Shown in pieces: positions 524-45,744 of a stretch of 46,851 bases of DNA. The position numbers were made by a program, and so were the translations under genes. The DNA comes from Desulfuromonadaceae bacterium (GTDB lineage: Bacteria > Desulfobacterota > Desulfuromonadia > Geobacterales > Pseudopelobacteraceae). Position 1 is the first letter of the stretch. Every line of letters starts with the position of its first letter. The notes under the pieces were generated by a model. It had not been told where the DNA came from, did not search any database, and saw nothing but the letters and a program-made list of their open reading frames with translations. The DNA lies in NCBI GenBank assembly GCA_028688955.1, contig JAQTXD010000020.1, positions 1-46,851 on the forward strand, read 5' to 3'.

Positions 524-772
524 TTAATAAGTAGATATGTCCTGGATTAGATTTTTAGTAATCTGAATCAGTTCGCGTAAATCGTTTCGTAATACGATAG
601 CCTCTTTCGTATGTTTTCCAGTTCGATAACGACCATGCGCCTTTCCTGATAGACTTTTTCCACCATGAAGTCTACAGCGCCCATTCTTCATGGCAGGCTG
701 ACGGCAAGAACCGCCAGCCCTCGTTATTGCACCACAATGCATCCGTGACATAGGGTAATTCATTTTTTTCAT
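524..772 (-). CDS. Small HGGxSTG-type element protein
   Basis: An 82-residue basic protein. The N-terminal half holds CGAITRAGGSCRQPAMKNG followed by CRLHGGKSLSG, the cysteine and HGG pattern of small proteins that recur in prophages and integrative elements (HGGxSTG-type). Here the motif reads HGGKSLSG. The spaced Cys and His residues (C-x9-C-x9-C-x2-H) suggest a small zinc-binding fold, which is inference. The ATG overlaps the TGA of the upstream gene by one base (TGATG), with a G-rich ribosome site just before it, so it is translationally coupled. It is the last gene of the operon that starts at the AlpA-like regulator. The exact role is not known. Confidence 0.7.
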   Translation of the reverse strand: MKKMNYPMSRMHCGAITRAGGSCRQPAMKNGRCRLHGGKSLSGKAHGRYRTGKHTKEAIVLRNDLRELIQITKNLIQDISTY

Positions 773-1392
773 CACTCCCCCCCTCCTGTGACGCCCCCGG
801 CTGAAATGCTATCGGCAATCACATTCTGGCCGCCGGTAACATGAACCTGCTTGACGATTATAGTTTGCTTACCGGCATTTCTGGTACGGCAGAGAGTTTC
901 CATTCCCTTCTGGTAAACTTCCATCAGCTTTGCGGCAACGGCAATCTGTTTTAGTTGAAAGGTTCGTGTTTCCAAATCGCGAGCATAGTTGCCACCCTCT
1001 GCAATCAGATTCATAGCCTTCACATGACAGGCTGCCATCTGGTGGGCAAGCATCTTTTCAAGGCTGTTCTTTGCCTGAATACTGTTAGCAGTATCAATGC
1101 CGGTTTCCAGTGAGGAAGCTCGCTGCAATAGTTTTGTGCGTTCCATACTGGCATCAACAGACGGGGTGTCCGGATTAGAAAGCGTGTTTATGATACCATA
1201 GGGATCATGCTGTTCATCCTCAGGGATGTGCATCACCTCACCCTGCCGAATATCCGGCGGTGCTTCAGGTATCATCAAACTTGCCGCTTCTCGTTCATAC
1301 ATTGAAAGGAGTGTTGGATTTGGTCTGTGTGATTCATAATAAAGATCATATCGCGCATCAGCAGCTTGCTGTGTTCTGGTTTTCCGTTTCAT
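772..1392 (-). CDS. Hypothetical mobile-element protein
   Basis: A 206-residue protein. The start is set at the ATG at 1392 because it overlaps the preceding stop as ATGA. The frame stays open further upstream but that stretch lies inside the preceding gene. The N-terminus is basic (MKRKTRTQQAADARYDLYY). The middle is helical with a conserved-looking segment around residues 110-150 (KMLAHQMAACHVKAMNLI), and the end is Gly-rich. Proteins with a KMLAHQMA..H..AM segment occur in phage-like elements next to small HGG proteins. I cannot assign a function; a packaging or DNA-binding role is only a guess from context. Confidence 0.65.
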   Translation of the reverse strand: MKRKTRTQQAADARYDLYYESHRPNPTLLSMYEREAASLMIPEAPPDIRQGEVMHIPEDEQHDPYGIINTLSNPDTPSVDASMERTKLLQRASSLETGIDTANSIQAKNSLEKMLAHQMAACHVKAMNLIAEGGNYARDLETRTFQLKQIAVAAKLMEVYQKGMETLCRTRNAGKQTIIVKQVHVTGGQNVIADSISAGGVTGGGE

Positions 1393-1691
1393 GCGTTGCC
1401 CTCGATACCTTTTGCAACCACTGCAATAAACATCAGTTCCTTGTTGCGTTGACGCAGTAAAGCATTTTCCTCTGCCAGCTTTTGACATTCTGGAAGAAGC
1501 ACATTAACTACCTGTTCTGCTGCCTCAACAAGGTACAGCACATTTCGTGGTGTAATTTTGCCTTTGTTTTCCGTCGCGTGAATAAGGAAGGGTGCCAGAT
1601 CCTGCAATGCGCCGTTGATAGGGTGGTGCGCTCGCAGTTCATCAAGGTGCTGTTGTGCCTGTTCATCGGTCATGTTATCGTATTCAATCAT
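1389..1691 (-). CDS. Hypothetical protein with C-terminal coiled coil
   Basis: A 100-residue protein with AGGAG nine bases before the ATG. It is acidic and helical, and residues 66-92 (PECQKLAEENALLRQRNKEL) look like a short coiled coil. The stop overlaps the start of the next gene (ATGA), so it is co-transcribed and probably coupled. No family recognised. It is downstream of the primase-helicase and the Cys-rich protein in the element's operon. Confidence 0.6.
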   Translation of the reverse strand: MIEYDNMTDEQAQQHLDELRAHHPINGALQDLAPFLIHATENKGKITPRNVLYLVEAAEQVVNVLLPECQKLAEENALLRQRNKELMFIAVVAKGIEGNA

Positions 1692-1703
1692 GGTGGTAGT
1701 CTC

Positions 1704-2021
1704 CTAAGGTGCGGGGGCAAGTTTGCCTTGCTGCTCGTTTATGGTTTGTGTGGCATCCTGTGAAGCGTGGTAGTGATCGCAGGCATTACGGACACAACCA
1801 GAAGGATAAGTGCTGCTGTGTAACTTTTCAGAACACCAACCGCCATAAAATAAACAGTGGTGCGGAAGGTCGCGGCCTCCGTTCGTTGGTGGTATCATTT
1901 CGATTTTGCGCAGTATCTTTGCTGCTTGATTTCGATTCAGCTCTAAAACTTTCCCAGCCGGTAGGGTGACACACCCTTGTTGCGTTTCCACAGTAAGGGG
2001 TTCAACAACAAAATATTTCAT
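1704..2021 (-). CDS. Small Cys/His-rich element protein
   Basis: A 105-residue protein whose start overlaps the primase stop (ATGA). The first 45 residues resemble a small beta-rich domain (MKYFVVEPLTVETQQGCVTLPAGKVLEL). The second half carries HHCLFYGGWC followed by SGCVRNACDHYH, which gives Cys and His in C-x6-C and C-x4-C spacing suggestive of zinc binding. Such short C-terminal C...C...C...C segments are seen in small genes beside satellite primases. The function is unknown. Confidence 0.6.
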   Translation of the reverse strand: MKYFVVEPLTVETQQGCVTLPAGKVLELNRNQAAKILRKIEMIPPTNGGRDLPHHCLFYGGWCSEKLHSSTYPSGCVRNACDHYHASQDATQTINEQQGKLAPAP

Positions 2022-4423
2022 GACATCACCTCAAAATTAGTTCCGGTTAGGTCAATAACTTCACTTGCTGAAAAGGGGGCTTTATCCGTAACAACGTCAC
2101 AACCCTGTATTGGTGCGGGTTTGCATGTTTCCTTTTCAGATTCACAAGAGTAACGTGACAGATTATTGGTAACAGGTAAAGCCGCTTCTGGTGCGGTTTG
2201 TGACGTTGTTACGCTTGGAAGGGGGGTAACTGGGATATAACGAGAAAACGCCTCGGCAAGCTGTTCTTTTTCGTAGCCCTTGGCAGTTTCAAAACCGAAT
2301 CTGATTGTCTTGCTGTGGATTCCGTACCCCTTCAACTTGTCTGCAATCTGCCGGGGTTTGATCTGAAACCCTTTGTTGTATGTGTTCCACGGCTTTTCAT
2401 CATCGGCGATAAGTTCTTTAATCAGTTCCGCTGTGCTGATACGGTCAACTTTCTTGTGTTCAAAGATTTCCTGTATATCTGCAAGTAATTCAGTGCCGAT
2501 ACTCAATGAGTGGCTTTCACCCCCAGCAAGTTTCAGCGCAGTTGCCGTGCCGGTCTTGTACCATCCACCCCCGGCAATCATTGCAATAGCAAGTAACGGC
2601 TCCCAGTTGTCTTGCGCACGGTCATTAAGGCTGGAGGGGAGGTCAGGGCGTGCCAGCCTTACCCGTTCGCAGTTGTCATCGGCGAATCGTGCTAGCTTTT
2701 GACAAAGTTCGATAAACAGACCGGGTTCAGCGTGGCGGATACGGTCGACGGATTCATGGGAGAGTTTCCGCCGCAATTCAAGAATGATTGACCGATCCAT
2801 AAGCGTGTCGGCAACATGGCCGATACCAGAAAGCGCCTTTGCTCCCCAGACGTTAAAACGCTTCGGGGTGTGGTCATCTCCTACACAACGGATAGTAAAG
2901 GCGCTGTCGCGGGTGTGACCGCAGTTAATCAGCCCCCGCAACTCTTCATTGTCTTTCATGCATGCGTCAACCTCATCAATCAATAAAGTAGGTTGCCAGG
3001 CATCTATTGACCTGAATAGTGCACTTGGTGAAATGCTACTTGACATAAGCGGTCGCGGGACAAGCCGCCCGATCAAGAACAACATCATAGATTTTCCACA
3101 ACGCTTTTCAGGTGCGGTGATTACCGCCAGTGGTGCAACCTGAATTACGTCAATAAACCACGTCATAGCAATCCATAATGCCACGGCGTGAGCTGTCTCT
3201 TGCCCGCAGATAATGAAACGCTTGATAGTTGCTGCAATAGTTGTCAGTAGTGCTGCTCCGTCAACTGGTTCGTGCCACGGATCAACATCCTCAAAAGGCG
3301 AATCTTTAACATCTACTTTACGTGTCGCCTTGATTTCAACGTCAAGCGTCCCAGGACGTACCCCTAGTGCTTTTGCTTCGTCTTTGCGTACTTTATCATA
3401 TTGAAGGGGGGAGAGTTTCGCCAGACGGTTGACCGCTGCCGTCAACAGGTCTGTAATATCTGGGGTGGTGTTCTCTGTAGCTGTTGCAGCATCAGGAACA
3501 GGTGCTTGTATAGGGCCAACCAGAACAGCAGCTCCAAGACAAGATAAGACGGCTTGTTTTCCTGACATTCCGAAGAGGTCACAAACATCTGTTCCATCAT
3601 CACCGGAAAAAGTAGGTATTGCCAGCCGTGCGCCTGTTGCCAGTGCCGCCGCTGTTGCTTTGGTCACTCCCGGATTATTTGCGGACAGTCGATCATTGTC
3701 AGCAACAAAAACCATGTCATAGTCGTTACCGCCCGCCGATCTAATAGCCTTGCCAACTTCAAGCAAATTGCCACAATCAAAACAGACGATAGCGGTCGCG
3801 CCGGTCAGTTCATGGATTTTGCAGGCATCAGCCCATCCCTCGACAAGATAAACTTTATTACCCTTACCCTTGATTGCCAGGTACGATCCGGCTTTCTCGG
3901 TACCGGTCAGAAATTTCTTTGAACCATCCGGCATAATGACCTGCAAACCGGTCAGGGTCTTTTCCTTATACAAAGGGATTAACAGCATATTTTTCAACTG
4001 CTTTGCGCCAAAAGGTTTGATTCTGTGAGACACAAGATAGGCATGGTCTGCTTTTACATCGTGCGCCGCTGCCAGCATTCTTTTTGCCTTGCCGCAACAC
4101 TCTGCCCGGACTTCCTGTAATGCCTTATCACGCGCCGCCCGTGCCTGCTCTCTTCGTTCTTTGATCTGGCTACGCTCTTCCGTTGTCAGGGTGTTATCTG
4201 CTTTGGCTTGCCAGTTTTGCCCGTCTGGCATACGTGACCAATGGCCGAATTTTCCCGCCGGGATTCCGTCACCGTAGAGGATATACCAAAGGTCTTTCTT
4301 ACCTGGTCGGTCTTGTTTGTCGCGGACATGAGCATGAAGGATGCCGTCATCAATAATCGGCCTTTCCGGATCTAGCCCGGCGTTCCTCATAGCCTCGGCG
4401 AATTGTTCCAATGAATCTGTCAT
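2018..4423 (-). CDS. TOPRIM primase / DUF3631 helicase-type replication protein
   Basis: An 801-residue protein, likely the replication protein of the element. Residues 1-75 include the conserved WYILYGDGIPAGKFGHW segment typical of satellite primases. Residues 145-285 are a TOPRIM domain with the catalytic Glu in VEGWAD (E195) and the acidic pair in VADNDR (D242-D244). Residues 380-620 hold an ATPase with Walker A APEKRCGKS (437-445), Walker B TLLIDEVD (479-486), and the DRAQDNWEPLLAIA segment of DUF3631. It is thus a primase-helicase fusion by analogy with the P4 alpha protein. The last 150 residues are less conserved and may bind origin DNA. ATGA overlaps on both sides couple it to its neighbours. 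Confidence 0.85.
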   Translation of the reverse strand: MTDSLEQFAEAMRNAGLDPERPIIDDGILHAHVRDKQDRPGKKDLWYILYGDGIPAGKFGHWSRMPDGQNWQAKADNTLTTEERSQIKERREQARAARDKALQEVRAECCGKAKRMLAAAHDVKADHAYLVSHRIKPFGAKQLKNMLLIPLYKEKTLTGLQVIMPDGSKKFLTGTEKAGSYLAIKGKGNKVYLVEGWADACKIHELTGATAIVCFDCGNLLEVGKAIRSAGGNDYDMVFVADNDRLSANNPGVTKATAAALATGARLAIPTFSGDDGTDVCDLFGMSGKQAVLSCLGAAVLVGPIQAPVPDAATATENTTPDITDLLTAAVNRLAKLSPLQYDKVRKDEAKALGVRPGTLDVEIKATRKVDVKDSPFEDVDPWHEPVDGAALLTTIAATIKRFIICGQETAHAVALWIAMTWFIDVIQVAPLAVITAPEKRCGKSMMLFLIGRLVPRPLMSSSISPSALFRSIDAWQPTLLIDEVDACMKDNEELRGLINCGHTRDSAFTIRCVGDDHTPKRFNVWGAKALSGIGHVADTLMDRSIILELRRKLSHESVDRIRHAEPGLFIELCQKLARFADDNCERVRLARPDLPSSLNDRAQDNWEPLLAIAMIAGGGWYKTGTATALKLAGGESHSLSIGTELLADIQEIFEHKKVDRISTAELIKELIADDEKPWNTYNKGFQIKPRQIADKLKGYGIHSKTIRFGFETAKGYEKEQLAEAFSRYIPVTPLPSVTTSQTAPEAALPVTNNLSRYSCESEKETCKPAPIQGCDVVTDKAPFSASEVIDLTGTNFEVMS

Positions 4424-4683
4424 GACCTACCTCCGTCACGCTGTCTATGAGAATAGATGGCGTCGGAGATGTAGCGGCAAGCAGCAATAAATGCCTGGAC
4501 CGGTACAGCCCGATTCAGGGCATATTCAATACATGCTAAGTCCAGTTTCTGGTTGTTAGCAAATTCAGCATCAAGTCCACCATCGTTTCGGGGGACAAAA
4601 TCACATTGAAAGCCACAAGCAATTAGGTAGGCAATTTTGTTTCTATCTCTGATGATTGTCGTCTGTGTCGATGTCTGCGTCAT
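4420..4683 (-). CDS. Hypothetical protein between regulator and primase
   Basis: An 87-residue protein of unknown family. It starts with a Thr/Gln-rich tail (MTQTSTQTTIIRDRN) followed by a compact segment with two Cys (ACGFQCDFV) and LACIEYALNRAVPVQAF. It begins two bases after the AlpA-like stop and ends in an ATGA overlap with the primase gene, so it is made with both. It could be a small replication accessory or regulator; nothing in the sequence decides this. Confidence 0.6.
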   Translation of the reverse strand: MTQTSTQTTIIRDRNKIAYLIACGFQCDFVPRNDGGLDAEFANNQKLDLACIEYALNRAVPVQAFIAACRYISDAIYSHRQRDGGRS

Positions 4684-4685
4684 GG

Positions 4686-4871
4686 CTATGCTTCCTTCTG
4701 GCTGTCAATCCAATTCATAAATCCATCAGCATCAATCAGCACTTTACGACCAACTTTACGAATGAACGCGGTTGCGCCATTTTGTTTTGAATTGAAGATG
4801 ATCCAACGAAGGGAGTTTTCGGTAAATGCAGGGAACTTCTGGGAGGTTTGTTTTACGGTAAGAAACGACAT
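4686..4871 (-). CDS. AlpA / excisionase-type helix-turn-helix protein
   Basis: A 61-residue protein with the length and pattern of the winged-helix excisionase/AlpA family. The N-terminus (FLTVKQTSQKFPAFTENSLRWIIF) matches the helix-turn-helix, and the wing and end read RKVGRKVLIDADGFMNWI. AAGGAG lies eight bases before the ATG. In P4-like satellites such proteins activate or repress the integrase or the replication operon. It is the first gene of the seven-gene operon running to 524, and a perfect palindrome lies 40 bp upstream of its start. Confidence 0.75.
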   Translation of the reverse strand: MSFLTVKQTSQKFPAFTENSLRWIIFNSKQNGATAFIRKVGRKVLIDADGFMNWIDSQKEA

Positions 4872-5788: not shown

Positions 5789-6862
5789 TTACTCAGCCTG
5801 CGTACCAAATATTTTTTGATTCATCCTCTCCACAACCGACAGCGTATGCTGTTCTGAAAGATGCGCGTAACGCTTCACCATGTCATTTGTTCGGTGACCA
5901 AGTACGGCGGCAATTTCCGGCAAACTTGCACCGTTCATAGCCAAGTATGAAGCGCATGAATGGCGCAGATCATGGAAGTGGAAATTTTCGATATTTGCGG
6001 TCTTAACAGCATTATCCCATGCAGTGCGAACGGATATTGACTCTTTGCCTTTTATACCTGCACGGGGAAACACAAGCGGGGTATCGATCCGGCGTATTTT
6101 AGAATGATCCTTGAGCAGTTTAAATGCTTCACCGGTTAGTGGTACAGCCCTTGTGTCGCCGTTCTTGGTATCAACCAGAATGATCCTTTTCAGGTCGAAA
6201 GAAACATTTTCCCAAGCAAGGCTAAGTATCTCGTTTTTTCTTGCGCCAGTAGAAATAGCCAACAGCACAACTAGATAAAGATGTGCGTTGCGGCTAACCT
6301 TACAAACTTCAAGCAGTCTGTTGCGTTCATCATCAGACAAAAAGCGCACTCTGCCTTTTGGTTCTGCTTCCTTCTCAACCTGTGCAAAAGGTGTCTTATC
6401 AATCCAGCGCCATGTTTTAACTGCCTTGGTGAAAACGTGCGACAATGCTGCCAGATACCTGTTGACGGTTGAGCCGGCCATCACTGTACCCTTATATGTT
6501 TTTTGCTGTAGAAGCTTCGTTTTGCATTCGTCTATAACGTCTGGAGTAACATCAGCCAGCGTGCGCATTCCTATTTCATTCTTCCACCATTCTAGTTGTG
6601 GTTTTTGCCCCGCTGCGGTCTTTGGCTTTTTGGGGAGTTCTTCTTTAATATACTTATCAATTAGTTCCTCTGCTGTGTGTTTCTTGGCCTTGATTGTTTC
6701 AAAGTGCTTTCCGTGGTGTATAGCTGTTTCAACTTCTTTTGCCCATCGGTCTGCATCGGTTTTGCGCTTGAAGGTCGCAGACTGCGTAGGGTAGCCCTTC
6801 ATCCTGATTGTCACTTTGTAGGTGACTCCCTTTACGCCGTCATACTTGGTTATGCTTGCCAT
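5789..6862 (-). CDS. int: Tyrosine recombinase, site-specific integrase of the element
   Basis: A 357-residue phage-type integrase. The start at 6862 is preferred because AAAAGGGGG lies just before it; the open frame extends 20 codons further. Residues 1-55 form an N-terminal arm-binding-type domain, about 60-160 the core-binding helical domain, and 170-345 the catalytic domain. The catalytic residues are visible: R208 (TGARKNEIL), H297 and R300 (HDLRH), H323 (LGHRTND) and Y332 (KRYAHL). It would integrate and excise the element at the tRNA-Leu gene at 10332. It is unusual that the gene is 3.4 kb from the tRNA, with cargo genes between, rather than directly next to it. Confidence 0.92.
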   Translation of the reverse strand: MASITKYDGVKGVTYKVTIRMKGYPTQSATFKRKTDADRWAKEVETAIHHGKHFETIKAKKHTAEELIDKYIKEELPKKPKTAAGQKPQLEWWKNEIGMRTLADVTPDVIDECKTKLLQQKTYKGTVMAGSTVNRYLAALSHVFTKAVKTWRWIDKTPFAQVEKEAEPKGRVRFLSDDERNRLLEVCKVSRNAHLYLVVLLAISTGARKNEILSLAWENVSFDLKRIILVDTKNGDTRAVPLTGEAFKLLKDHSKIRRIDTPLVFPRAGIKGKESISVRTAWDNAVKTANIENFHFHDLRHSCASYLAMNGASLPEIAAVLGHRTNDMVKRYAHLSEQHTLSVVERMNQKIFGTQAE

Positions 6863-6929
6863 AACGCCCCCTTTTCCCAGACTTGATAACAGCCAGTAAA
6901 AGAGTACAACTAACAACCACAACTGTCAA

Positions 6930-6950: not shown

Positions 6951-7002
6951 ATATATGACATAATACCAATATAAATAAGTATGTTATAAATTATATGCTC
7001 TT

Positions 7003-7054
7003 ATTTGGTGCATATATGGTGCACAAAAATCTAAATTTAGTGCAAATTGGTGCA
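7003..7054 (+). repeat. Four ordered ATTTRGTGCA repeats, candidate integrase arm sites
   Basis: The copies are ATTTGGTGCA (7003-7012), ATATGGTGCA (7014-7023), ATTTAGTGCA (7035-7044) and AAATTGGTGCA (7044-7054, sharing an A). Steps of about 11, 21 and 10 bp put all four on one face of the helix. Two inverted copies lie beside the tRNA at 10241-10261. This pattern is typical of arm-type sites bound by the N-terminal domain of tyrosine integrases. Confidence 0.55.
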
Positions 7055-7403
7055 ACTCCATCCAGAATAACCAATCGTTGAGTGGTCACATTTATGATCA
7101 ATTGAAATTATGAACGTCAATAGACGAGAGGCTGGCATTGGTAAATTTATTGGCTAATTTATAGAAGAAAACTTGGTTCCCATTTATTTCAATTTTAATA
7201 ATTCTCTAATTGACACTCGAACAAGCTCTGGTAGGATGCTGCTCGCATGCGTACTGGAATCATTACGGGTAGAAATGACTTGAGAAATAAATCTGGAAAA
7301 CTTTTATAAGTTTAGGGGGTTGCAACTAATTTACAGGCTAACATCCAAACCAGGATGATGGCCATATCTGATCAATAACAAGTTGAACTTATGGAGGAAT
7401 GGC

Positions 7404-8405
7404 ATGAAACTCTTAGTAACAGCCCAGCAAATTCGGGAGATGTTATATCAAGTAGCCCCATCAAAAATTGCAGTTGCCTTTATTGGAAAGGGGTGGAAAA
7501 AATTCATTCCCACGGAGCAACTACAAGAGATTGTGGTCTCACCAACTTTTGGATCAAACCCAAAGGCCATTGAGGAAATAATGAAAGTGATAGGAGATGA
7601 AAAAGTATATTTCCTAGATCAACTCCACTCTAAAGCCTACATTGGTAAAGACACCGCACTCATAGGTAGCTGCAATCTATCTGACAATGGTATGGGCGAT
7701 AACCATTTAATGGAAATGGCTGTGTTTTTAGAAAAATCTGCTTCAATTGCGCAGCTTGAGAATACATTCGAAGAATACAAGAAACAGGCGCTCAACCTCT
7801 ACCCAAACCTTGAAGCAAAAAAAGCCAGGCTCCGAATGCTAACAAAACAGTGGAATACCGCTGTCTGGCACGGAGTTACAATAGATGATACTGAGGAACC
7901 GAGCCTAATGGATTATGAAAGTGTATTGGATACAATCCATATTGCTTTTTATCAGCCAGACGACTTGGTTTACAATTCCGAAGCTATTGACACCATAGTT
8001 CCTGAATCAAAAGGTGTGTCGCCTGATGATTATTTTTCTGAACAGCTTCAGTTTCTGGAGGAGGATCCCATTGAACAGGGAGATTGGATTTTATGCTGGC
8101 ATTGTAATAACGATGGCTATCCACGAAAAAATGGTGATGTGAGTTGGATGCGTGCACATTATGTCATACCTCACGGTGTAGTAGACGAGGATTATACAAA
8201 ACTGGTATGTCAAGCAAAGAACCTAGAACCTGGCAGTGCCCCATTCCGGCTTGACCCGACAACTAAAGAACTTATTCGGAATGCGCTTTATTCCGGGCAA
8301 TTTCCGGAGTTGCTTTCACTAGATGACTCTGTCTGGCATCTGACACCTGCTGATGCCGTTACGCAAAATTTCCTTCAGCATATTAGGCAACAACGAAGAG
8401 AATAA
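7404..8405 (+). CDS. PLD-like (single HKD) protein, cargo gene
   Basis: A 333-residue protein. GGAGG lies just before the ATG at 7404, which is why this start is preferred over an upstream in-frame ATG. The N-terminal 110 residues carry one phospholipase D-type motif: HSKAYIG (H75, K77) followed by GSCNLSDNG (S89, N91). Family members with one motif act as dimers, often as nucleases. The C-terminal 200 residues are unfamiliar and contain WILCWHCNNDGYPRKNGDVSW. There is no signal peptide. It is the first of three plus-strand cargo genes between integrase and attachment site, a position where satellites often carry defence genes. A defence role is inference only. Confidence 0.7.
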   Translation: MKLLVTAQQIREMLYQVAPSKIAVAFIGKGWKKFIPTEQLQEIVVSPTFGSNPKAIEEIMKVIGDEKVYFLDQLHSKAYIGKDTALIGSCNLSDNGMGDNHLMEMAVFLEKSASIAQLENTFEEYKKQALNLYPNLEAKKARLRMLTKQWNTAVWHGVTIDDTEEPSLMDYESVLDTIHIAFYQPDDLVYNSEAIDTIVPESKGVSPDDYFSEQLQFLEEDPIEQGDWILCWHCNNDGYPRKNGDVSWMRAHYVIPHGVVDEDYTKLVCQAKNLEPGSAPFRLDPTTKELIRNALYSGQFPELLSLDDSVWHLTPADAVTQNFLQHIRQQRRE

Positions 8406-8489
8406 TATCCAACAAGGCTTACGACCTGCCCTAAAAGCTGGCAGGTCAAAGCCATGCCCGTTGAACGACAAAAGAAGGAGAATGGACTG

Positions 8490-9146
8490 ATGAAGCCTAA
8501 TCCGAAAAACTGGGAATTTCTTGAAAAAGAGGTTGAATCGAGACGTAAGCTTTTATTAGAAGCGTTGAGAGCGCGTTTTCCAAACTCAAACACAGTTGCA
8601 ATGGCAGCAACTGATGTGTTTGTGGAGAAAGCTCAACTAGCCTTAAGCCAGAGGGCAGAGGGAATGGTTTTTTGGGGGTTGGTGACAGGGGGATTAGGCA
8701 CTATTGTTCTTATTCTTACAGCAGTCTATCTTGGCTATGTCGATTTTTTCCATCCAGACCATTCTAAGTACGACAACTACACTTTCACATTGAAGTTGGT
8801 TAAGACTACAACTATTAGCGCCTTAATACTTGGAGCTGATGTTATGTTGATGGGGCTGGCAAAATCTCTTCTTCATGAGGCAATGGTGCTTTACAATCGC
8901 AGACATGCATTAAGATTTGGAAGGCTCTACGTGTATACCCAGAACGGAAATGTAAACATTGATAAGCTTATTGACGCCTTCGAGTGGAATTCTGAATATA
9001 CATCTGCCTTCAAAGATTTAAAACCAGAGACCATATCAAAAACAATCCTTCACAAAATATTTGAACTGCCCCCTGATACACTCAGAGCTGCGGGCGATTT
9101 TTTACGAGCCAACAAAGAGCGGAAAAATAAGTCAGAGAACGATTAG
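8490..9146 (+). CDS. Two-TM membrane protein of unknown function, cargo gene
   Basis: A 218-residue protein. The ATG at 8490 is preferred because AAGGAG lies about ten bases upstream; a further ATG at 8454 has no ribosome site. Residues 1-57 are soluble and helical. Two membrane segments follow at about 60-83 and 104-124, and the C-terminal 90 residues are soluble with LYNRRHALRFGRLYVYTQNG and FEWNSEYTSAFKDL. The topology suggests both ends in the cytoplasm. It starts 84 bp after the PLD-like gene and may be co-transcribed. I do not know the family. A small helical membrane protein next to a candidate nuclease could be a sensor or effector, but this is speculative. Confidence 0.65.
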   Translation: MKPNPKNWEFLEKEVESRRKLLLEALRARFPNSNTVAMAATDVFVEKAQLALSQRAEGMVFWGLVTGGLGTIVLILTAVYLGYVDFFHPDHSKYDNYTFTLKLVKTTTISALILGADVMLMGLAKSLLHEAMVLYNRRHALRFGRLYVYTQNGNVNIDKLIDAFEWNSEYTSAFKDLKPETISKTILHKIFELPPDTLRAAGDFLRANKERKNKSEND

Positions 9147-9179
9147 AATTTAAGCCAACAGACATATACATATTCAAAG

Positions 9180-9206
9180 ATGCAGCATGATAAGTGCATT
9201 TTTTTT
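9180..9206 (+). terminator. Weak hairpin with T8 tract after the membrane-protein gene
   Basis: ATGCA and TGCAT can pair around a ten-base loop, followed by eight T. The stem is only five base pairs, so termination may be partial. Confidence 0.35.
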
Positions 9207-9423
9207 GTCCGTTTATTCAATTCTAGAAATTGCAGATTCTCATGCATCGGATGAGTATGTAAGAGGAAGAGAAACCCACTGAAAAAACGTCTTGAAGTTA
9301 AAGGACTTCGGGTTAAACGCGAATTGAACACAACAAAGCACCAGGCGATCGTGCGATACGGTTACGACGACACGGCGCTCTCTCTCGTTAAACAAATGAC
9401 TATAGACTTTTTTGGGAGGATTG

Positions 9424-10074
9424 ATGCAAGGTACAGTTAAATGGTTTTCGCAAGAAAAGGGGTTTGGATTTATTGTTGATAGTGATGGTAATGATCTTTA
9501 CTTCAATGTCCAAGGAATCAAAGGGGCTACTCTACCAGGAAATGGTGATGTCGTAAGTTATGATATTGGAAAGGGTAAGAAAGGGCCAATAGCAACTTCG
9601 GTGACAATTATCCAAAAAAAAGAAGTTCAATCGAGAAATACGTATGTTGACAGTCGAGTAACATGTTCAAAATGCAATAGAGCTATGGTGCCACGGGTAG
9701 TACTCAAATATGGGAGTCCCGATTACTCAATATGTCCATATTGTGGTGATATGTACAAGGCTTTTTGGTGCTTTATTACTACAACAGTCTGTAATTATAG
9801 AGGACTTCCAGATGATTGCTATGAACTACAGACTCTTCGTCGATTTAGAGATGAACACTTACTCTCCACGGAACAAGGGTCTACTTTAGTAAAAAACTAT
9901 TACGACGTAGCCCCTTCAATTGCAGCTCGCTTAATTAATAAAGATGACTTAGAAAACACTTGGGAGAAGATTTGTCAGTGTATTGCTGATATTGAGTCAA
10001 ATCAATTTGATGAAGCTGTAGTCAAATACTCTAAAATGGTTGCATTTCTCCAACAGCGACTTCTATCGCAATAG
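9424..10074 (+). CDS. Cold-shock domain / zinc-ribbon / CFI-box protein, cargo gene
   Basis: A 216-residue protein with GGGAGG four bases before the ATG. Residues 1-65 are a cold-shock domain (GTVKWFSQEKGFGFI, RNP1 intact). The RNP2 position reads DLYFN rather than the usual VFFH. Residues 81-107 form a zinc ribbon (C81-x2-C84 ... C104-x2-C107). Residues 115-172 match the CFI-box C-terminal domain: WCFITT, then LQTLRRFRDEHLL and NYYDVAPSIAARL. The cold-shock domain should bind single-stranded nucleic acid. The CFI box is a tail shared by otherwise unrelated proteins and has no known function. It lies last in the cargo group, closest to the attachment site. Confidence 0.8.
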   Translation: MQGTVKWFSQEKGFGFIVDSDGNDLYFNVQGIKGATLPGNGDVVSYDIGKGKKGPIATSVTIIQKKEVQSRNTYVDSRVTCSKCNRAMVPRVVLKYGSPDYSICPYCGDMYKAFWCFITTTVCNYRGLPDDCYELQTLRRFRDEHLLSTEQGSTLVKNYYDVAPSIAARLINKDDLENTWEKICQCIADIESNQFDEAVVKYSKMVAFLQQRLLSQ

Positions 10075-10240
10075 GATGTCATAAATAATAAGAATAAATA
10101 AGAATGGGAGCCAACAGACCCTACATTAGATGGACATTGCTTGATTTGCCCATTAGGCAGTCACACTAACCACGGGTACCTCAGTTTTCAATGATCTTAA
10201 TCTGTTGCAAGGGGTTTATTTATGGTCGACTGAAAATGAC

Positions 10241-10261
10241 TGCACTAAATTTGCACTAAAT
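10241..10261 (-). repeat. Two inverted copies of the ATTTAGTGCA repeat near the tRNA
   Basis: TGCACTAAAT occurs at 10241-10250 and 10252-10261, eleven bases apart, which is ATTTAGTGCA on the minus strand. This is the same unit as at 7003-7054 in opposite orientation, 70-90 bp from the tRNA 3' end, where an integrase arm would be expected. Confidence 0.55.
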
Positions 10262-10284
10262 CTGTTTTAGAGAGGGAGAAAAGA

Positions 10285-10321
10285 CAAGAAAAAAGGCCCT
10301 ACGAAAACTCGTAAAGCCTTT
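10285..10321 (-). terminator. Rho-independent terminator downstream of tRNA-Leu
   Basis: On the minus strand AAGGC and TACGA arms pair with TCGTA and GCCTT around a short loop, followed by six T. It lies directly after the tRNA, on the element side of the junction, so the element may supply the terminator. Confidence 0.65.
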
Positions 10322-10331
10322 ATTCTTCTGA

Positions 10332-10418
10332 TGGTGCCCGGGACTAGACTCGAACTAGCACACCCTTGCGAGCACAAGAACCTGAATCTTGCGTGTCTAC
10401 CAATTCCACCACCCGGGC
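10332..10418 (-). tRNA. tRNA-Leu (CAG anticodon)
   Basis: Read on the minus strand, the acceptor arms GCCCGGG and CCCGGGC pair perfectly, followed by A and an encoded CCA. The anticodon loop TTCAGGT between CAAGA and TCTTG gives anticodon CAG. A long variable arm (GTGCTCGCAAGGGTGTGC region) and the AGTTCGAGT T-loop fit leucine tRNA. The 3' end marks the probable element junction. Tyrosine integrases often use tRNA 3' ends; P4 also uses a tRNA-Leu gene. Confidence 0.95.
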
Positions 10419-10431
10419 AAGTGAGCTGTCT

Positions 10432-45252: not shown

Positions 45253-45744
45253 CTATGCCTCCCGGTTTATCATGACGGCGCTTGCCGGTCGCTGCTGATA
45301 GCCACCCGATGCCCCATAAACATTTGATTGATTTATCAGCCGTGTTATCAGGCCGAGAGAAGACGTAATTGAAAATGCAAAACGCTCTGCAATTTCCCGG
45401 TTGAGTGCAGCAACCTGCTGGATGCGCTCTGCCGTTGCTTGGATCTGTTTTTGAGTGGCAAGCAATTCGCGATTGCCTCGTTTTGCACTAAATTCGGCGA
45501 TTGTCCTGAGAGTTGCGTTTGAGGAAAGCCCTTCATGTGCTGCGATTTCTGATATAGCCCGTTGTATAAGCGGTGAGTGCCCGCTGATCCTTGCGATCAA
45601 CTCTTCCTTTGTCTGGTTGGAATGATTCATGGCGGCGATGTTAACATCACCCATCTCTATGGTTTCCCGCTCCAGGACCTGGAGCAGCTCGGTAAGCAGT
45701 CTGGACTCAACTGCAATTGCTTCTTTCAATGTTTTCGTTTCCAT
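45253..45744 (-). CDS. flgN: FlgN-type flagellar export chaperone
   Basis: A 163-residue all-helical protein (KEAIAVESRLLTELLQVLERET, NREIAERFAFSITSSLGLITRLIN) of FlgN size and character. The ATG at 45744 has GGAG eight bases upstream; the open frame extends eleven codons further. FlgN guards FlgK and FlgL before export. The assignment rests on pattern plus position directly before flgK, since FlgN sequences diverge. Confidence 0.8.
   Translation of the reverse strand: METKTLKEAIAVESRLLTELLQVLERETIEMGDVNIAAMNHSNQTKEELIARISGHSPLIQRAISEIAAHEGLSSNATLRTIAEFSAKRGNRELLATQKQIQATAERIQQVAALNREIAERFAFSITSSLGLITRLINQSNVYGASGGYQQRPASAVMINREA

Follow-up and report, generated by a model that had tools for sequence, protein, structure and literature searches.

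The stretch of DNA analysed here (the window, 46,851 nucleotides) is one entire contig, JAQTXD010000020.1, of a Desulfuromonadaceae bacterium (assembly GCA_028688955.1), and carries a putative mobile element at a tRNA-Leu gene. A tyrosine integrase (Int) gene is preceded by four copies of the repeat ATTTRGTGCA (the upstream, or int-proximal, set), and two further copies, inverted relative to these, form a core-proximal pair beside the tRNA; the 3,186 bp separating the two sets hold three cargo genes (Table 1). A pattern scan confirms the positions and spacings of the copies noted in an earlier reading of the sequence alone. The upstream copies are spaced at 11, 21 and 10 bp, so that all four lie on one face of a 10.5-bp helix, and two of them, at 7014 (ATATGGTGCA) and 7045 (AATTGGTGCA), are one base off the consensus. 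The inverted copies start at 10241 and 10252. The repeats are probably arm-type sites recognised by the element's own Int through its N-terminal domain, the core-proximal pair and a similar pair on a second contig (C134) being the arms of a P2-like attachment site (attP), and the four-site set a separate control region for int.

Table 1. Features of the window around the repeat sets (positions are those of the window; C134 is another contig of the same genome, L012 and L014 are related loci)
Feature	Position	Strand	Basis and remarks
Tyrosine integrase gene, 357 aa	5789..6862	-	ATG at 6862; Pfam PF00589, E 6.1e-34
Second candidate promoter, TTGACA-17-TACTCT	6901..6929	-	GTTGA invariant in four-way alignment
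Candidate -10, TATAAT	6990..6995	-	By eye; 11 bp after TGCACC of the last site; equal spacing in L012
Int-proximal set, four sites (7003, 7014, 7035, 7045)	7003..7054	+	Pattern scan; reads TG... toward int on the minus strand; 11/21/10 array also in L014 (first copy by eye)
PLD-like protein (cargo)	7404..8405	+	Pfam PLDc_2, E 1.8e-7; weak PADLOC DrmC/DpdK
230-aa protein (cargo)	8454..9146	+	No family match; hydrophobic stretches by eye
Cold-shock-domain protein with extension (cargo)	9424..10074	+	Pfam CSD, E 1.4e-14
Core-proximal putative arm pair, two exact copies 11 bp apart	10241..10261	-	Pattern scan
Terminator-like hairpin downstream of the tRNA, element side	10292..10321	-	Sequence comparison; near-identical in L012
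Attachment core, 61 bp	10332..10392	-	Own-genome comparison; identical to C134 11406-11466 (other end of the element)
tRNA-Leu (CAG), integration target	10332..10418	-	tRNA scan of the window

Exact copies of the repeat number five in the window, compared with 0.24 in its shuffles (0 of 100 shuffles had at least five). With one mismatch allowed there are 11, against 7.3 in shuffles, and 12 of 100 shuffles reach as high, so that the bare count is unremarkable; it is the clustering, phasing and location of the repeats, rather than the one-mismatch count, that is unusual. An isolated exact copy at 45484 was set aside. The whole genome (3.95 Mb) has 23 exact copies, compared with 7 for a reversed control pattern, and among the 18 outside the window one is a member of the C134 pair and two belong to a second element on contig C123. 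A chance origin of the repeats is ruled out by the window shuffles together with the four-copy test over related loci described below.

The 61-bp copy of the 3' part of the tRNA gene on C134 is accompanied, on the element side, by ATTTAGTGCG and ATTTAGTGCA, 11 bp apart (C134 11284-11304). In the orientation of the window both core-flanking pairs point one way, and the 7003-7054 set points the opposite way. Apart from the arm motif, the only matches of at least 13 bp between the region 10200-10430 and the rest of the window are two that look like chance. The whole looks like an attP of the P2 type, in which direct arm pairs with 11-bp spacing and a single orientation flank the tRNA-Leu core, and since two such pairs flank the core, as the arms of P2 do, this attP looks complete without the upstream set. 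The sequence-only reading had suggested that cargo was inserted into the attP region: the cargo does lie between the two sets, but the attP itself is unsplit, with the arms at 10241-10261 and on C134 intact.

That reading had also proposed comparing relatives that lack the cargo to see whether the two sets join, and in such relatives they lie close together. Locus L012, at the same tRNA-Leu and with an Int 84% identical, shows three clear copies upstream, the last of them 103 bp from the inverted pair; in L014 (Int 68%) four copies spaced at 11, 21 and 10 bp, one of them degenerate, are followed by a 73-bp gap; and in L358, on C123 of the same genome, the sets are 88 bp apart in a complete, cargo-free element of 8.0 kb bounded by 57-bp repeats at a tRNA-Ser. 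The L358 integrase has 52% identity, and the other end of that element has copies at 3780 (+) and 3797 (-) with no clean pair. The L012 contig contains no repeat of its tRNA of at least 18 bp, so the other end of that element was not found there. The window aligns with L012 as far as the upstream set, and the alignment resumes about 6 bp ahead of the arm pair, the cargo having replaced the DNA in between.

The wider comparison covers 109 loci, those with at least 150 bp upstream among 113, drawn from 13 loci of one search, all 80 of another and 19 of the 80 of a third, plus the window, which is counted twice (WIN, L010); redundancy was kept. A direct pair and an inverted pair of exact 6-mers upstream of int occur in 25 of the 109, against 0.05 expected. 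Allowing mismatches, the same arrangement is found with a short gap in 38 loci and with a long gap in eight (expected 0.0 and 2.75). These small expected values are rough, since they come from 4-50 first-order Markov shuffles, and in one of these searches the long-gap expectation is 0.0, yet the long gaps of L054, L125 and L134 look chance-like. From the 46 mismatch-tolerant loci, 37 were trusted, leaving out L054, L061, L068, L074, L089, L107, L119, L131 and L134 as of low complexity or chance-like. In 32 relatives the gap between the sets is 36-238 bp. It exceeds 300 bp in five of the 37, namely the window, L049 (1,564 bp), L050 (2,509), L051 (4,134) and L055 (482), and in all of these save L051, where no tRNA was called, a tRNA is found 49-74 bp from the far pair. 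Later loci of the same kind are L238 (6,597 bp), L240 (590) and perhaps L283 (489). A wider four-copy search of 120 later loci found 36, with TG in all four copies in 18 and the remainder chance-like. A sample of 395 genomes of the phylum, searched at E 1e-60, was matched by the bacterium's own genome alone, and phage records, searched at 1e-60 with the L051 Int as single query, gave no match.

Across the 37 loci the distance from the int-side set to the integrase start is nearly constant (median 141 bp, interquartile range 134-147, range 110-239), while the gap between the sets varies from 36 to 4,134 bp. This bears on the possibility that both sets are arms of one long attP, the int-proximal set having no regulatory role, and that cargo has displaced that set, leaving an element that forms a loop or is crippled. 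In favour of this alternative, cargo-free relatives with a called tRNA have the int-side set some 120-230 bp from the end of the tRNA, a distance that an intasome could span. The upstream set nevertheless holds its distance to int at gaps of 0.5-6.6 kb, and the record of P2 has only two arm pairs, flanking the core, both of which the window element possesses without its upstream set; a single long attP is thus unlikely, though it deserves some weight.

The DNA between the sets would accept new genes if the two sets have different jobs, as proposed here. In the window it holds genes for the PLD-type, 230-aa and cold-shock-domain proteins, with a G+C of 0.40 compared with 0.46 in the element left of the cargo and 0.52 in the right flank. 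The PLD-like protein occurs in three of 141 genomes of the order, its own included, and the cold-shock protein in its own alone. The corresponding slot of L050 has AbiD/Abi_2 and an unmatched 387-aa protein; that of L051 a D12 methylase, a PD-(D/E)XK nuclease-family protein and an HNH-effector-like protein; that of L238 a DRT8 reverse transcriptase, IetA/IetS and one unmatched protein; and that of L049 a single unmatched protein, the slots of L055, L240 and L283 having short frames only or none. Some of these genes are perhaps of defence type. The idea that the upstream set originated as an operator of the cargo was rejected, as cargo-free relatives have merely short spacers between the sets. 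Elsewhere, the element backbone in the window (524-4871) encodes small proteins as well as a DUF3631/Toprim primase-like protein (2018-4423). On C134 (239-10964, L009), immediately within the other attachment end, lie genes for type I restriction-modification together with a YgjP-like and an Hsp70/TPR gene; these belong to the element on the assumption of a single element.

The promoter of int in the window is uncertain, with two candidates (Table 1). A second arrangement, the Methylococcales-type layout, has int at the other end of the element and a pair about 148 bp from it, and in this group TATAAT (with at most one mismatch) follows exactly 7 bp after the pair in 46 of 56 loci. Of 54 loci, 50 contain, on the opposite strand, the T-loop of a tRNA fragment (5.5 expected), and the pair starts 148-161 bp from it in 48 of these 50. 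The distances cluster at 148-150 and at 158-161 bp, a difference of roughly one helix turn. Given this fixed distance, the single pair can serve as an arm, an arm-like position that also favours one long attP, and the notion that the int-side pair is independent of the attachment site in this group was dropped. Of 32 later loci whose upstream sequence reaches 6.5 kb or more, 26 lack an inverted pair in it, which the other layout, with int at the opposite end of the element, explains. In L250, L258, L265 and others, inspection by eye shows a hairpin leader (GGCCTTG...CAAGGCC) between pair and int and a short ATGGCT... frame just before int.

Both layouts have, at a similar place, a pair that reads toward int. 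Negative autoregulation has been measured for IntS of the KplE1 prophage and likewise for IntC, IntF and IntL, integrases with a promoter in the attachment region (excerpt of PMC2951348). Because of this shared pair and the measured precedent, self-control of the integrase is the best reading of the upstream set, which most likely acts as an operator at which bound Int represses its own transcription. The suggestion of the sequence-only reading that this set controls the integrase gene is therefore upheld as to its fixed place before int in relatives, the control itself being an interpretation. Int bound there could instead activate int. The group whose -10 is clear has its first site at about the -35 position, with no -35 consensus seen there (by eye), and the array of the window is upstream of one promoter candidate (TTGACA-17-TACTCT); with repression as the measured precedent, activation is considered quite improbable.

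In other lineages the motif differs in both sets at once (TGTCCC, TGGACA, TGTGCC, TGCCCC, TGCGTA and others), keeping the form of TG plus four bases (N1 to N4) save in a few degenerate copies. The agreement between sets over the 37 loci is partly by construction, and the exact-6-mer test over 109 loci is the non-circular one. Among the first 37 loci, distance between motifs tracks the N-terminal domain of Int given the catalytic domain (partial r 0.285, p 0.002; in the opposite direction 0.113, p 0.11). The five integrase columns most strongly associated with the motif are residues 18, 5, 7, 3 and 16. A later set of 120 loci of one order was taken from the top down of a longer match list, and an exact TGNNNN pair was found at the expected place in 91 of the 119 with enough sequence (1.4 expected). 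Pooling gave 138 loci, reduced to 109 non-redundant Ints (less than 85% identity) with 289 variable columns. Here the best columns are residue 18 for N2 (z 22.9), residue 16 for N3 (z 25.2), residue 7 for N4 (z 13.0), and residues 18 and 3 for N1 (z 10.9 and 10.4). E or D at residue 18 goes with G at N2 in 39/39, and T at residue 16 with A at N3 in 37/38.

Pairwise contrasts limit the effect of shared ancestry and give the same map of residues to bases, N4 weakly. Over 53 disjoint pairs, residue 18 changes in all 27 where N2 changes (p 5.5e-9, top of all Int positions); the best residues otherwise are 3 for N1 (21 of 25), 16 for N3 (19 of 23) and 7 for N4 (4 of 9). Seven loci contradict the firm part of the code and stayed in these counts; five of them are TGGGAC with K or R at residue 18, probably the reverse-strand far pair of TGTCCC mistaken for the near pair. 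With nearest neighbours chosen on residues 3, 5, 7, 16 and 18, and training restricted to Ints less than 60% identical in the catalytic part, the whole motif is recovered in 54% of the 109; the catalytic part yields 5.5%, the remainder of the N-terminal domain 21% and a random match 8%. With training below 50% identity the figures are 28% for the five residues versus 3% and 2%. These rates are optimistic, as the five residues were picked on overlapping data. The motifs of L014 and L060 were reassigned by hand from the DNA for the residue and base tallies and the nearest-neighbour prediction; the z scores precede that change.

An AlphaFold2 (AF2) model predicts that the N-terminal domain of the window integrase is a three-strand sheet with a helix (strands 2-9, 12-19 and 27-31, helix 34-49; predicted local distance difference test, pLDDT, 79-85 for residues 1-50). 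Residues 3, 5, 7 and 16, 18 occupy alternate positions of the first two, neighbouring strands, where, as sheet residues do in known arm-binding domains, they may lie in the DNA groove. By sequence, the integrase matches the catalytic domain of HP1 best in the PDB (1aih, E 2.5e-21), and its fold matches include HP1 and P2, ranked after XerA; an IntP2 subgroup of integrases is named in an excerpt of PMC8138268.

The tracking of Int residues also bears on whether a recombination directionality factor, rather than Int, binds the repeats, such as the product of the 61-aa reading frame at 4686-4871. This frame appears AlpA-like by eye and has no Pfam or PHROG match. In excisionase sites, direct repeats are likewise spaced by one helix turn (phage 186 Apl, excerpt of PMC7498355), as they are in the window array. 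Against this, the motif tracks single residues of the Int N-terminal sheet above any other Int column (the comparison being among Int columns only), and repeat pairs flank the core, a geometry shared by the Int arms of P2, in which Cox is annotated elsewhere. A directionality factor is thus very improbable as the binding protein.

The mechanism proposed is that the N-terminal domain of Int would bind both sets, the arms for recombination and 7003-7054 for control of its own gene. The pair at 10241-10261 would be one arm of a P2-like attP and the C134 pair the other, Int at the inverted upstream array would repress int transcription, and inserts between the sets would be tolerated in excision and integration. 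A broader interpretation, favoured with some reserve, is that the sheet reads TGNNNN by a nearly modular code (residue 3 for N1, 18 with 5 for N2, 16 for N3 and 7 for N4), and that lineages have repeatedly rewritten arms and dedicated operator together, giving each element a private address for recombination and control; the separation of operator and arms would then provide a slot in which defence genes can be swapped with mobility unbroken. Several observations weigh against the proposed mechanism. Contigs C134 and C47 are unjoined in the assembly, so that the element is inferred from repeats, and the four-copy arrangement was not found in 63 of the 109 loci. An exact pair is missing from the expected place in 58 of 105 first-set and 28 of 119 later loci. 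The TTGACA-17-TACTCT candidate puts the set about 75 bp upstream of its -35, which is odd for simple repression; loci of the window-type layout have a -10 at the 7-bp offset in just 4 of 32 cases, and no common -10 could be found among 14 loci whose pair is more than 220 bp from int. By sequence, the Methylococcales-type pair is indistinguishable from an arm, at a fixed distance from the core. Finally, the N4 contrast is weak (p 2e-3), residues 274 and 177 scoring nearly as well as residue 7.

Arm pairs, the P2-type attP and integrase autoregulation are already known. To our knowledge, the arm-site specificity of phage and island integrases has so far been worked out element by element. As far as a literature search shows, the separate operator set, the cargo slot between operator and attP and, above all, the residue-by-base code appear to be new; no report of such a code was found, which is weak evidence of absence since subscription literature was mostly outside the search. 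If true, a code readable from genomes would make arm sites and operators predictable from the integrase protein, show how elements sharing a host avoid cross-talk, and aid in locating both ends of islands. It would also offer a testable reason for the presence of cargo between integrase and attachment site, namely two modules served by one protein that can be separated harmlessly.

Among known systems, P2 resembles the window element in that direct pairs of Int arm sites, spaced at 11 bp and all in one orientation, flank its core; at N2 and N4 its aligned residues D18 and L7 fit the code. Unlike the window element, P2 has no third annotated Int set in the stretch examined, and its P' arm is at the 3' end of int; the window element has the extra inverted four-site set before int, and cargo between this set and attP. 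The KplE1 prophage shares with the window the STI layout of tRNA and int, and has Int sites at the int promoter. That promoter is inside attL and is overlapped by the arm sites (both from the excerpt of PMC2951348), whereas in the window operator and arms are separate and kilobases apart. The Apl sites of phage 186 are, like the window repeats, direct repeats 10-11 bp apart, found at att and at promoters (excerpt of PMC7498355), but they are bound by a different protein, and the window motif tracks residues of Int.

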